In this document: positions 47,581-54,050 of the stretch, piece by piece
How the letters are laid out: every line of letters begins with the position of its first letter
How positions within the stretch are numbered: the stretch's first letter is position 1
Assembly (NCBI RefSeq): GCF_003258315.1
Contig: NZ_CP030032.1
Coordinates: forward strand, 1,812,001 to 1,876,000
From: Bradymonas sediminis
GTDB taxonomy: Bacteria; Myxococcota_A; Bradymonadia; Bradymonadales; Bradymonadaceae
Direction of reading: 5' to 3'
Length of the DNA stretch: 64,000 bases
Program-made: the position numbers and the translations under genes
Notes under the pieces: model-generated
The model's input: the letters and a program-made list of their open reading frames with translations, nothing else
Database searches by the model: none
What the model was told of the DNA's origin: nothing

Positions 47581-49125
47581 TTAGAGCGGGATATTGCCGT
47601 GCTTTTTGGGCAGGCTATCGATGCGCTTATTCTGCAGCATCTCCAGCGAGCCGATGAGGCGCGGGCGGGTGTCGATGGGATCGATGATCTCGTCGATATA
47701 ACCGAGCTCGGCGGCCTTGAACGGGTTGGCGAAGGTCTTGCGGTATTCCTCGACCAACTCGTCCTTTTTGGCGACGGCGTCGTCGGCTTCTGCCAGCTCG
47801 TTGCGGAAGACGATATCGATCGCACCAGCCGGGCCCATGACCGCGATTTCGGCGGTGGGGTAGGCCAGGTTGATATCGGCGCCGATATGCTTGGAGGCCA
47901 TCACGTCATAGGCGCCGCCATAGGCTTTGCGGGTGATGAGCGTGATGAGCGGGACGGTGGCTTCGGAGTAGGCGTACAAAAGCTTCGCGCCGTGCTTGAT
48001 GATGCCGCCGTATTCCTGGTCCACGCCGGGCAAGAAGCCGGGGACGTCGACCAGGGTGATGATCGGGATATTGAAGGAGTCGCAAAAGCGCACGAATCGC
48101 GCGGCTTTCAGGCTCGCGTCGATGTCCAGGCAGCCGGCCAGCGCGTTGGGTTGGTTACCGACGATGCCCACCGAATGCCCACCAAGGCGCGCGAAACCGA
48201 TGACGATATTGCGCGCGTATTCGGCTTGAACTTCGAAGAAATAGCCGTCGTCGACCACCGCTCCGATAATCTCGGTCATATCGTAGGGCTTCGACGGGTT
48301 GGCCGGCACGATATCGTTGAGCTTGGCGTCGCGGCGATTGACGTCATCGTCGGTGGGCACAAAGGGCGGGTCTTCGGCGTTATTGGAGGGCAGAAACGAG
48401 AGCAGCTCGCGCACGCGCGCGATGCATTCGTCTTCGGTGGCGCACTCAAAATGCGACACGCCGCTCTTCTCGCTATGGATGCGCGCGCCGCCCAACTCCT
48501 GCTTGGTCACTTCCTGGCTGGTGACCGTTTTCACGACCTCCGGCCCGGTGATGAACATATAGCTGGTGTCCTGGACCATGAAGATGAAGTCGGTGATCGC
48601 CGGGCTATACACGGCGCCGCCGGCGCAGGGCCCAAGGATGGCCGACAGCTGCGGGACCACGCCGCTGGCGCGCACGTTCTGGTGGAAGATGTCGGCATAG
48701 CCGGCGAGGCTCTGCACGCCTTCCTGGATGCGCGCGCCGCCGGAGTCGTTGAGGCCGATGACCGGAGCGCCGACCTTGGTTGCCAGATCCATGATCTTGC
48801 AGATCTTCTCGGCGTACGCGCCGCTGAGGCTACCGCCGAAGACCGTGAAGTCCTGGGAGAAGACATAGACGGTGCGCCCGTCGACCTTGCCGTAACCGGT
48901 GACCACGCCGTCGCCGGGGATCTTCTTTTTCTCCATGCCGAAGTCGGCACAGCGGTGGGTCTTGAGCTTATCAAGCTCGACAAAGGTCCCCGGGTCGAGG
49001 AGCAGGTCGATGCGCTCGCGCGCGGTGTATTTTCCGGCGTCATGTTGGCGCTTGATGCGCGCTTCGCCGCCGCCCATTTCGGCTTGAGCGTTCAATTCTT
49101 GAAGACGTTTGACATTATCGGTCAT
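47581..49125 (-). CDS. Acyl-CoA carboxylase carboxyltransferase (propionyl-CoA carboxylase beta-like)
   Basis: A 514-aa carboxyltransferase. Landmarks are [20 protein letters not shown] at the N-terminus, [20 protein letters not shown] and [12 protein letters not shown] in the crotonase-like N domain, and [20 protein letters not shown] in the C domain. It transfers CO2 from biotin to propionyl-CoA (or a related acyl-CoA), giving methylmalonyl-CoA. The biotin carboxylase/carrier partner is not in this window. Combined with leucine dehydrogenase and E1, it supports branched-chain amino-acid breakdown. Ribosome site AAGGGAATATA precedes ATG at 49125. Acetyl-CoA specificity is less likely. Confidence 0.93.
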
Positions 49126-49182
49126 TATATTCCCTTGTGACTATCATCGGCACGAGAACCTTCCAGGGTCGCTGGGAGGTGC

Positions 49183-51018
49183 TTATTTCTTTGCGTCGTC
49201 CTTCTTGGGGACTCGCCTGGTTGCGCCTTTCTTCTTAGCGCCTTCTTTTTTGGTGCTGTCCTTCTTCGCGCTGCTTTTGGGTTCCGATTTCTTCGCGCTC
49301 TTCTTCGTTGTTTCTTTTTTCGCGCTATCGGTTTTGGCGGTGGCCTTCGAATCCGCCTTCTTTGTGCTCTTCTTCGACGAGGACTTCTTTGAGGTCTTTT
49401 TCGCCGCGGATTTCTTCTTCGGGGAGGCCTTCTTTTCTTCGGTCTTCTCGGCTGCTTTCACTTCAACCGGGCGACCAAGGGCCTTCTTATAGATGTCGAC
49501 GTATTGGCTGGCCGAGTTCCCCCAAGAGAAGTCGCGCTCCATGGCGTTTTGGATGACCGGGCGCCACTGGCGGTGGTTTCGGTAGCGCGTGGTGGCGCGC
49601 GCGATGGTCTCGCGAAGCGTGTCGACGTCGAATTTTTCGAAGGCAAAGCCGGTGCTTCCCTCGATAATATCGCCGGTCTTCTTGTCGCGCTTGGGGTCGA
49701 TGACGGTGTCTTTGAGCCCGCCGGTGGCGTGCACCAACGGCAGGGTGCCGTAGCGCATGGCGTAGAGCTGCGTGAGTCCGCAGGGCTCAAAGCGACTCGG
49801 GATCAGCAGGATGTCCGCCGCGGCCTGGAATTTGTGGGCCAACTCCTCGCTATAGCCGAGGTGTGCGGCGATATGACGCGGGAATTTCTCGACCAATCGG
49901 GTGATCTCGTCGGCGTATTTTTGCTCGCCTTCGCCCAGGAATACGACCTGGAAGGAGTCTTTCTCGTGCTCGAAACCGTCGAGTAAGGTCTCAAGCGCCG
50001 GCAATAAAAGGTCGAGGCCTTTTTGCTCGGTGAGCCGTCCGACCATCGCCAGAAGCGGAAGGGTGGGGCGGTCGGGGAGGCCGAAATGGGCCTGCAGAGC
50101 GGCCTTATTCTTGCGCTTGCCGTGCAGATCGTCCGAATCATATTGGACGTCGATATAGTGGTCGACCGACGGCGACCAGACCGAATAGTCGGCGCCGTTG
50201 AGGATTCCGGTGAGCTTGGCCGAGGCGTCGCGCAGGGCTTCGCCCAGGCCAAAGCCGCCCTCGTCGCTCTGAATCTCTTCGGCGTAGGTCGGGCTGACGG
50301 TGGTCACCTGCGAGGCGTATTTGATCCCGCCTTTAAGGTAGTTGATGGCGTCGTCGACGCGCATCTCCGACGCCGCATAATACTTTTTGGGCAGGCCGGT
50401 CTCAGGCATCGCTTCGCCGTCGAATCGGCCCTGGAATGCCAGGTTATGAATGGTCAGCACGCACGCGGTGTCCTTCATCTCCTCGGCGTAATAATGCTCG
50501 CGGAAGATGGGCGCCAGCGCGGTATGCCAGTCGTTGCAATGAATGACGTCGACCGGGACGCTATATTGCATCGAGAATTCGACGATCGCGCGGCTAAAGA
50601 ACGCGAAGCGCGCCGGGTTCGACTGCAGGTCGCCGTCGCCATAACCGTAGAGGTTATCGTTCTGGCCGAAGAAGTCGTCCTGCTGGATGAAGAAAATGCG
50701 CACGCCGCCTTCGGTGCGGCCTTCCCAGATGGTGGCTTCGACTTTTTTGCGCAATTTGCCCAGCCGCGGGACCTGCAGGGGCTGCAGGCGCCGGCTAAGA
50801 TGAAGCGCCTCGGGGTCCAGATGCTTGTACAGCGGGGTGATGATCGAGACCCGGTGTCCCATCGCGTTGAGCGCTTTGGGAAGACTCGCCGCAACATCGG
50901 CGAGGCCGCCGGTCTTCGAATAGGGTGCAACCTCACTGGAGGCAAATAGAATATCGAGGGTTTCCGCAGCACTGGGCTTCTCAGAGTGCTTGGTGCGGAT
51001 CAACTGGGCGAGTTCCAT
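49183..51018 (-). CDS. glgA: Glycogen synthase with Lys-rich histone-H1-like tail
   Basis: A GT5 glycogen/starch synthase, 611 aa from the ATG at 51018; a TTG nine codons upstream is less likely. The N-terminal motif EVAPYSKTGGLADVAASLPK binds ADP-glucose, and the C-terminal Rossmann domain has SRFEPCGLTQLYAMRYGTLP. It extends alpha-1,4-glucan with ADP-glucose in the cytosol. Length of the enzyme part is normal (about 515). The last 94 residues are a tail of Lys, Ala, Ser and Thr (35 Lys) after GRPVEVKAAEK, with runs like SPKKKSAAKKTSKKSSSKK, as in eukaryotic histone H1 tails. The tail may bind nucleic acid or polyanions. Such a fusion is unusual. Confidence 0.93.
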   Translation of the reverse strand: MELAQLIRTKHSEKPSAAETLDILFASSEVAPYSKTGGLADVAASLPKALNAMGHRVSIITPLYKHLDPEALHLSRRLQPLQVPRLGKLRKKVEATIWEGRTEGGVRIFFIQQDDFFGQNDNLYGYGDGDLQSNPARFAFFSRAIVEFSMQYSVPVDVIHCNDWHTALAPIFREHYYAEEMKDTACVLTIHNLAFQGRFDGEAMPETGLPKKYYAASEMRVDDAINYLKGGIKYASQVTTVSPTYAEEIQSDEGGFGLGEALRDASAKLTGILNGADYSVWSPSVDHYIDVQYDSDDLHGKRKNKAALQAHFGLPDRPTLPLLAMVGRLTEQKGLDLLLPALETLLDGFEHEKDSFQVVFLGEGEQKYADEITRLVEKFPRHIAAHLGYSEELAHKFQAAADILLIPSRFEPCGLTQLYAMRYGTLPLVHATGGLKDTVIDPKRDKKTGDIIEGSTGFAFEKFDVDTLRETIARATTRYRNHRQWRPVIQNAMERDFSWGNSASQYVDIYKKALGRPVEVKAAEKTEEKKASPKKKSAAKKTSKKSSSKKSTKKADSKATAKTDSAKKETTKKSAKKSEPKSSAKKDSTKKEGAKKKGATRRVPKKDDAKK

Positions 51019-51208
51019 AGGTTTTGTTCTCAGGTAAACGGACAAAATACAGATAATAAACCAGGCGCTTCTCTATAAATAAACAACCTCGAAAATACAA
51101 CCACACCCTTGGGCATGCCGTATTTCGGGGTTGTTTGAGGCGCGATTAATTCGGCAAGGGCGCCGCGAAAAAGGCGCCGATGGCGAGTCGCGAACACGCT
51201 AGGTCGTG

Positions 51209-52297: not shown

Positions 52298-53089
52298 GTG
52301 GTCGAGAGATATGAGGAAAGTCGTCGAGGCGCAGGTTGGGTTTGGGCGATTGTAGGAATCATCGTAGCGGCCTTAGTCATCTGGTGGGTCGGTGCAGCGC
52401 TAACCGATAACACAGATGATAGCTATACCGCCCAGGGGGAGCAGGTTAGCGAAGGTTATAATACAAACGAAATAGCAGAAAACGAACCATCGCCGGAGCT
52501 CGGCGAGGAGGCGATCACCGACCCGGCGCAGGACTCCGATGAGTTGGCGCAGGCCGATCTCCCAGCCGGGTTCGACGAGGCCGAGTCGACGGGCGATGAC
52601 ACGTCGCTGGCAAACCTCAACGCGTGGACCGAGCAGGATCACCCGAGCCTCGACGCCGCCGCCCTCGACGATGGCACGGCGCGCTTGAGCGAGGCCGCCG
52701 GGGAGGTTGCCACGCTGTTTGGCGCCGCGGCGCTCGACGAGGGCAGCCAGGTCGGTGGTGGCCCGCCCGATGAGAGTGCGCAGGCGCTCGTGTCCGAGCG
52801 TACCCGCCTGGAGGCGTCGGTCGAAGAGTTGAAGAACTCACAGTCGGCCGAATACCCCGGGGTCTTCTATCAGGTCGCCAAGGACTTCGTGGCCCTGGTG
52901 GATGGGATTCAAAATCAGGCCGATACGGAGGAGGCCAGTGAACCGCTGGAGCAACTCCACGGGGCTTTGGATGAGCTTTCCCCGACCCAGGATCTCGATG
53001 AGCAAGAGTCGGCGATTAAGTCGTTCTTCGACAACGGGGCCCAGGTCCTCAATGCCTTCGCCGAATCCACCGCGGAACAACCCGAGTAA
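52298..53089 (+). CDS. Membrane-anchored paralogue A of a tandem exported pair
   Basis: A 263-aa protein with start GTG at 52298 directly after AAGGAGGAGTT. One transmembrane helix (WVWAIVGIIVAALVIWWVGA, residues 14-33) anchors it, with the acidic rest probably outside. The middle is Ala/Asp/Glu-rich; a SQVGGGPPDES motif and the helical C-terminus (SAIKSFFDNGAQVLNAFAES) resemble those of the next gene. No family known to me. It is followed 128 bp later by paralogue B, whose mature domains align in the same order. Function unknown; an envelope or stress-structural role is inferred from location. Confidence 0.8.
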   Translation: MVERYEESRRGAGWVWAIVGIIVAALVIWWVGAALTDNTDDSYTAQGEQVSEGYNTNEIAENEPSPELGEEAITDPAQDSDELAQADLPAGFDEAESTGDDTSLANLNAWTEQDHPSLDAAALDDGTARLSEAAGEVATLFGAAALDEGSQVGGGPPDESAQALVSERTRLEASVEELKNSQSAEYPGVFYQVAKDFVALVDGIQNQADTEEASEPLEQLHGALDELSPTQDLDEQESAIKSFFDNGAQVLNAFAESTAEQPE

Positions 53090-53216
53090 ATGAACAATTT
53101 TGGGGAGCCCGAGCGTGGGTGAAGGCGAGAAGGTCGCCTTCACCCTGGGCGCCGCGTTCCCTAAAGCGTGGACTAAGCACCCGCGAACACACCCAGAAAA
53201 ACACAAGGAGAGTATC

Positions 53217-54050
53217 ATGCAGTATATAAATATTCGCACCATTCTCGCGCTGCTTCTCTCAATGGGCCTCGGTTCCGCCGTGCTCGCCCAGGGCGGCGAC
53301 GCGATGGCCGAGGGCAGCTACGACAAGCAAGCTGAGAAGATCGATGACTCCACCGAATCGGCCACCGACAAGGCGGTCGATGATTCCAAGAGCGCCGAGA
53401 TGGGCAGCAAGGATGAGTCAAAGAGCGACGAGATGCGTAGCAGCGAGGAGTTGGCCAAAGACTTCAAGGAATGGACGAAGTCTGAGAAGCCCGACGATAA
53501 TGTCGACGGCTATGCCAGCAACGGCCTGACCAAGCTCGATGAGGCGATTGGCTCCGTGATCGAGGACGTGAACGCACAGCCTATGGGGGGCGGCCCGGCC
53601 GGTGACGAGAGCTCGGACAAGGAGGCTACGCACGAGATGGACAAGTCCGCGCTAAAGGACCTTAAGTCCGAGCAGGAGCGGCTCTCCAAGATCGCCTCGG
53701 ATATCAGCGGCGACGCCAAGAGCGAGCATCGCTCCAAGCAATTCCACGAGGCCGCAACCGCGACCAGCCAGATCTTCTCCTCCCTCCAACAGGCGCATTT
53801 CCCCAAGCTAGAGAAGGACGTCAAAAAGTTGCAGGAGCGCGTGGATAAGATCGACGCCAGCAAACCGCTTGCATCGCAGGAGAAGGATGTCGAGAAATTC
53901 TTTAAGGAGTCCTCGAAGGTTCTCGATAAGATGTCCGATGAGCTCAAAAAAGACGCCATCGGCGGTGGCCCGGTCGAAGACGACATGAGTCACGAGGGCG
54001 ATAAGAGCAGCGACGAGAAGGTCGATGAGGTGACGCCCGAGATCGAATAG
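53217..54050 (+). CDS. Exported paralogue B of a tandem pair
   Basis: A 277-aa protein. AAGGAG lies 7 bp before ATG at 53217, giving a signal peptide (TILALLLSMGLGSAVLAQ). The mature part is Lys/Asp/Glu/Ser-rich and helical. Blocks matched with paralogue A: KEWTKSEKPDDNVDG with NAWTEQDHPS, PMGGGPAGDES with VGGGPPDES, and VEKFFKESSKVLDKM with IKSFFDNGAQVLNAF. The second GGGP (IGGGPVEDD) near the C-terminus is extra. The gene ends with a strong terminator. It is probably periplasmic, with no enzyme motif seen. Confidence 0.85.
   Translation: MQYINIRTILALLLSMGLGSAVLAQGGDAMAEGSYDKQAEKIDDSTESATDKAVDDSKSAEMGSKDESKSDEMRSSEELAKDFKEWTKSEKPDDNVDGYASNGLTKLDEAIGSVIEDVNAQPMGGGPAGDESSDKEATHEMDKSALKDLKSEQERLSKIASDISGDAKSEHRSKQFHEAATATSQIFSSLQQAHFPKLEKDVKKLQERVDKIDASKPLASQEKDVEKFFKESSKVLDKMSDELKKDAIGGGPVEDDMSHEGDKSSDEKVDEVTPEIE

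Follow-up and report, generated by a model that had tools for sequence, protein, structure and literature searches.

Introduction

Why a glycogen synthase should end in a lysine-rich, histone H1-like tail is the question raised by glgA of Bradymonas sediminis, which lies in the 64,000-nucleotide stretch of DNA analysed here (the window; contig NZ_CP030032.1, positions 1,812,001 to 1,876,000). Comparable tails occur on proteins of other storage polymers. The H1-like C-terminal domain of AlgP binds DNA and is needed for the spacing of polyphosphate granules, and PhaF and PhaM anchor granules to the nucleoid (accessible parts of PMC9239181 and PMC13052382). Lysine repeats on actinobacterial TopA stabilise that enzyme on DNA (accessible part of PMC7398561). 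The word glycogen does not occur in the accessible parts of PMC9239181 and PMC13052382, and the latter, a review of organelle positioning, does not cover there how bacterial glycogen is positioned and shared at division. No reports of such tails on glycogen enzymes were found among the papers listed in searches of open-access full texts.

Results

An ordinary glycogen synthase with a predicted disordered tail

The following features of the window are all located on the minus strand:

49183..51045, minus strand: glgA, glycogen synthase (GT5), 620 aa counted from TTG (TIGR02095 E 3.7e-162, Glyco_transf_5 E 5e-74)
49468..51018, minus strand: GlgA catalytic core, confident predicted fold (pLDDT, Foldseek)
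49186..49467, minus strand: GlgA C-terminal tail, 94 residues, lysine-rich, predicted disordered, H1-like (composition, pLDDT, PASK windows)
47581..49125, minus strand: acyl-CoA carboxyltransferase-like gene directly downstream of glgA (name read from sequence)

The B. sediminis enzyme is an ADP-glucose glycogen synthase that is ordinary apart from its tail. Its core scores 540 bits against the curated TIGR02095 model (cut-off 328), placing it among GlgA proteins, and the best Foldseek matches, 6gne, 1rzu and 2qzs (E 7e-44 or better), are starch and glycogen synthases from plants and bacteria, with the GT5 fold. The ATG at 51018, nine codons inside the TTG, is the likelier start. Structure prediction yields pLDDT values of 83-98 in most blocks of the core, with lower values at the N-terminus and in a few loops. 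The tail is predicted to be disordered (pLDDT about 27-40 for residues 531-620). Its 94 codons specify 35 lysines, 14 alanines, 14 serines, 9 threonines and 2 arginines together with 12 acidic residues (7 glutamates, 5 aspartates), giving a calculated charge of +24.7 and a pI of 10.3; the pI of the core is 6.05.

The original prediction of a 94-residue histone-H1-like tail with 35 lysines on a normal GlgA is borne out by the open frame, the composition and the TIGR02095 score of 540 bits. The range given for it, 49183-49470, contains the tail but adds the stop codon and one core codon, and the description as SPKKK/AAKK-like runs is loosely right, the actual counts being one SPKK, one AAKK, four [AS]AKK and 16 KK pairs. 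The repeated S/T-P-K-K of linker histone H1 is not found, only one [ST]PKK being present in the tail, and the globular winged-helix domain of H1 is absent from GlgA, for which Pfam gives glycosyltransferase families only. The tail resembles the AlgP/PhaF type as a long lysine-rich C-terminal domain with predicted disorder; it differs in lacking the KPAA repeats that the accessible sources describe for AlgP and PhaF, with no KPAA and 3 prolines in 94 residues.

The tail is real and exceptional within its genome

The GlgA tail of B. sediminis is real. The glgA reading frame stays open from the core through the tail to a stop codon 57 bases short of the conserved next gene, and GC content by codon position in this frame is 0.37, 0.47 and 0.69, highest at the third position. 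One antisense frame is also open with high third-position GC, and there is an antisense ORF of 127 aa (49109-49492, plus strand), but such an ORF is the expected by-product of lysine codons read backwards. It is rich in phenylalanine and leucine. Codons for lysine, serine, alanine and threonine are mixed within the tail and Tandem Repeats Finder detects 2.2 copies of a 27-base unit in the tail DNA and nothing more; the tail is not a simple DNA repeat. An assembly artefact is unlikely because the genome is assembled as a single contig with 99.81% completeness, the frame is kept and the downstream gene order is intact.

In 1.66 Mb of the B. sediminis genome, 970 ORFs reach 200 aa; the net charge of their last 94 residues averages -2.1 (SD 6.7), with GlgA topping all at +25. 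Searching the genome with a profile of the tail returned only weak other matches (best E 0.17), and lysine-rich ends were then counted directly in sampled stretches. At least 20 lysines per 60 residues are found in three of the 1276 ORFs of the 1.66 Mb: GlgA, topoisomerase I and a membrane-anchored kinase-like protein, the last two named from sequence. Topoisomerase I (L154:590-3334) carries a 46-residue tail with 23 lysines. This tail is patchy among relatives with a TopA match, being present in G001, G009, G012, G027 and G029 and absent in the other ten read. The kinase-like protein (L187:17891-19336) has a tail with 25 lysines in 60 residues that comes after an apparent membrane span and may lie outside the cytoplasm.

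The B. sediminis tail was probably gained recently

The tail extension occupies an otherwise conserved gene slot. Of the 19 family loci, 18 have the carboxyltransferase-like neighbour next to glgA and the remaining one is cut by a contig end, an arrangement that rules out an invading ORF as the origin of the tail. None of the 18 readable same-family orthologues (19 fetched, one cut by a contig end) has a long GlgA tail. The closest, G010, is 72% identical and ends 5 residues past the core. In G006 the end measures 19 residues, 8 of them lysines. Absence from all 18 combined with conserved gene order suggests that the tail was probably gained recently, and since the closest relatives lack it, its function would not be general in the family. 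According to the original prediction, the tail would be refuted if all relatives lacked it and low-complexity assembly error was evident as well: the former nearly holds within the family, and no signs of the latter were found.

To look further afield, a query spanning the GlgA C-terminus and the tail was searched against 377 genomes of the same phylum (244 matched), 398 of the L071 phylum (219 matched) and 392 of the L070 phylum (233 matched). Among the own-phylum matches listed, only B. sediminis runs through the tail without a stop. Across all three phyla, again among the matches listed, at least 12 residues past the core without a stop are found only in B. sediminis, in G967 (48 aa, arginine-rich), in G1191 (43 aa, arginine-rich) and in a few short ends, three of which were read as 14-21 aa. 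The family containing Collinsella served as positive control: there the query extends through the tail, as it also does in two members of the same class, G638 and G521. On the matches listed, a long basic tail is rejected as a common GlgA feature. No second species of the B. sediminis genus was present among the relatives searched; the dN/dS values for tails given below come from the Collinsella family.

GlgA tails arose independently in the Collinsella family

A scan of 80 GlgA loci from named genomes identified two with long basic ends, both from Collinsella and 282 and 319 residues in length. The gut family that contains Collinsella has GlgA in 63 of 65 genomes. Open GlgA frames of at least 600 aa, counted stop to stop, are present in 58 of the 63, and the tail count rests on the 44 genomes whose GlgA ends were read: 42 have a long basic tail, the exceptions being G381, without a tail, and G415, cut by a contig end. 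The tails span 100-320 residues with net charges of about +6 to +46 where read, the two lowest-but-one figures including stretches cut at the end. They begin with an acidic proline-rich stretch followed by the lysine-rich part, and contain 16-42 aspartates and glutamates. Two lineages have much of the lysine replaced by arginine, namely G435 (26 R and 15 K, net +22) and G425 (33 R and 10 K, net +27, in a stretch that includes an ambiguous codon). Outside the family, two class-level relatives have lysine-rich GlgA ends, of at least 260 residues in G638 (L286; cut at its end) and 60 residues in G521 (L287). Some KPAA or AAKP units occur in the Collinsella-family and G638 tails.

GlgA tails arose independently in the B. 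sediminis lineage and the Collinsella family. In a 70-row GlgA tree, the 80 named loci were represented by a random draw of 26, to which L107 and L110 were added; L077 and L083 (duplicates of L258 and L253) and rows whose match spanned fewer than 420 query residues were left out. The tail trait needs at least 2 changes on this tree, forced by its starred branches. All eight tailed rows of the Collinsella family fall into a single clade with a support of 99.

Tails in the Collinsella-family cluster are confined to GlgA and GlgB

The 20-kb stretch around glgA of G407 is a glycogen cluster whose branching enzyme, GlgB, also ends in a lysine-rich tail:

L343:10921-13305: G407 glgB with basic tail (stretches of the other genomes: L344-L363)

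The comparison covered G407 and 20 further genomes, chosen mostly by sequence length. A basic GlgB tail, 33-138 residues long, is present in all 21, and GlgA is tailed in 20 of the same set. In none of the 21 do GlgP, GlgC or GlgD extend beyond the G407 versions, and the G407 proteins end about where their family models end. Basic tails are thus confined to the polymer builders GlgA and GlgB as opposed to GlgP, GlgC and GlgD. In contrast to the GlgA tails with their acidic start, GlgB tails are almost purely basic. In a 400-kb sample of G407 (330 ORFs, with the glg stretch included on purpose), no lysine-rich tail of this type is found among the 316 ORFs besides the glg stretch; the one other lysine-rich ORF is IF-3-like, the name being read from sequence.

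Collinsella-family GlgA and GlgB tails are under purifying selection, evolving fast but constrained. Among nine near relatives, dN/dS is 0.25 for GlgA tails, 0.36 for GlgB tails and about 0.03 for the cores; these values derive from 36 overlapping pairs, and low-complexity alignment may favour identity. Lysine positions are kept in 1630/1825 aligned pairs in GlgA tails, compared with 5668/6921 at other positions, and in 739/789 in GlgB tails, compared with 1601/1911.

Discussion

We tentatively propose, as the likeliest of the readings considered although with less than even confidence, that the GlgA tail is a disordered polycationic tether linking the builders of the alpha-glucan to a polyanion, most likely nucleoid DNA. 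The core would remain on the growing alpha-glucan, the tail would bind the polyanion without sequence preference, and the nascent glycogen particle would thereby be anchored to the nucleoid, distributed along the cell and divided between the daughter cells. This model is patterned on PhaF and PhaM for polyhydroxyalkanoate and on AlgP for polyphosphate granules. An electrostatic tether is suggested by predicted disorder, high positive charge, restriction to polymer-building enzymes and the preservation of charge when lysine is exchanged for arginine, and is further supported by the independent origins and by the selected tails on both GlgA and GlgB. These observations suggest a link between the growing glycogen particle and another charged cell structure, perhaps the chromosome. 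Against the tether, GlgP also binds glycogen and has no tail, and the only match to a TIGR01515-type branching enzyme in B. sediminis is weak (E 2e-7, below the cut-off), the lack of this GlgB type weighing against a glycogen-granule model in this organism.

The tail by itself does not name its partner, because topoisomerase I and the membrane kinase of the same genome have such tails. DNA is rated the likeliest partner on the precedent of AlgP and PhaF together with the TopA tail in the same genome. Inorganic polyphosphate comes second, and binding to it (or to RNA), which would place or regulate GlgA at polyphosphate granules, is the main rival to DNA, above all in B. sediminis, although we consider it rather unlikely. 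By the PASK definition of polyphosphate binders (20 residues, at least 75% D/E/S/K and at least one K; accessible part of PMC12345225), 27 windows of the B. sediminis GlgA tail qualify, and of the 1276 ORFs sampled from the genome just 8 contain a qualifying window. Escherichia coli binders rely on lysines of both PASK-like and non-PASK regions according to the accessible part of the same paper, and bradymonabacteria store polyphosphate and polyhydroxyalkanoate granules (accessible part of PMC7460792, in which the word glycogen does not appear). Unlike the B. sediminis tail, none of 21 GlgA tails and none of 21 GlgB tails of the Collinsella family fits the PASK definition. The window also encodes a second PASK-definition protein (53100-54050, plus strand), acidic and secreted-looking as read from sequence, with a similar gene adjoining at 52298-53089.

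The B. sediminis tail might instead be a recent low-complexity expansion that is tolerated and functionless, as its restriction to one genome (0 of 18 readable family orthologues) and the coming and going of similar TopA tails in the same family would allow. This is improbable given that the tail is in-frame with codons mixed at synonymous sites, is the most highly charged of 970 C-termini and is paralleled by Collinsella-family tails under purifying selection. It is less probable still that the tail joins glycogen builders to each other or to acidic partners in a charge-driven condensate with no tether to a cell structure. The acidic stretches of Collinsella-family GlgA tails are as compatible with assembly or coacervation as with DNA binding, their acidic start could pair with the almost purely basic GlgB tails, and tails occur on just the two polymer builders of that cluster; but B. 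sediminis GlgA is tailed although no TIGR01515-type GlgB accompanies it, and its tail has only 12 D/E per 94 residues. That the tail is an assembly or frameshift error, or that the antisense hydrophobic frame is the true gene, is hardly credible in view of the single-contig genome, the open sense frame and its codon-position GC.

Tethering to a polyanion, nucleoid or polyphosphate, stays our best reading of the original prediction and is partly supported, by the independent and selected Collinsella-family tails. No supporting evidence was found for acidic glycans, which had also been put forward as a partner. The resemblance to H1-like granule tethers would extend to the way of working. As described in the accessible sources, AlgP and PhaF of Pseudomonas and PhaM of Cupriavidus likewise carry a lysine-rich disordered C-terminal tail on a storage-polymer protein, for which a nucleoid tether has been proposed. 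Theirs are located on a separate organiser or phasin, whereas here the tail belongs to the polymerising enzyme itself, and an alpha-glucan is the polymer. The lysine repeats of actinobacterial TopA and the tails of HupB and HupS are similarly basic, have been compared with histone H1 and belong to GC-rich bacteria (accessible literature), and the B. sediminis genome has such a TopA tail itself; unlike GlgA, TopA, HupB and HupS act on DNA anyway.

What appears to be new here, judged from sequence, is the fusion of an H1-like tail to glycogen polymerising and branching enzymes, twice independently for GlgA. It is possible, and we advance it with reserve, that an H1-like polycation has been joined to glycogen builders independently in two or more bacterial lineages, such that the polymerase serves as its own granule-to-nucleoid tether, with both GlgA and GlgB anchored in the Collinsella family. 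The presence of tails on two builders and their absence from the remaining enzymes of the cluster offer a direct, testable handle. The best system is the Collinsella family, in which the trait is conserved, under selection and common to two enzymes. If true, glycogen would be a third storage polymer positioned by a histone-like tail, besides polyhydroxyalkanoate and polyphosphate.
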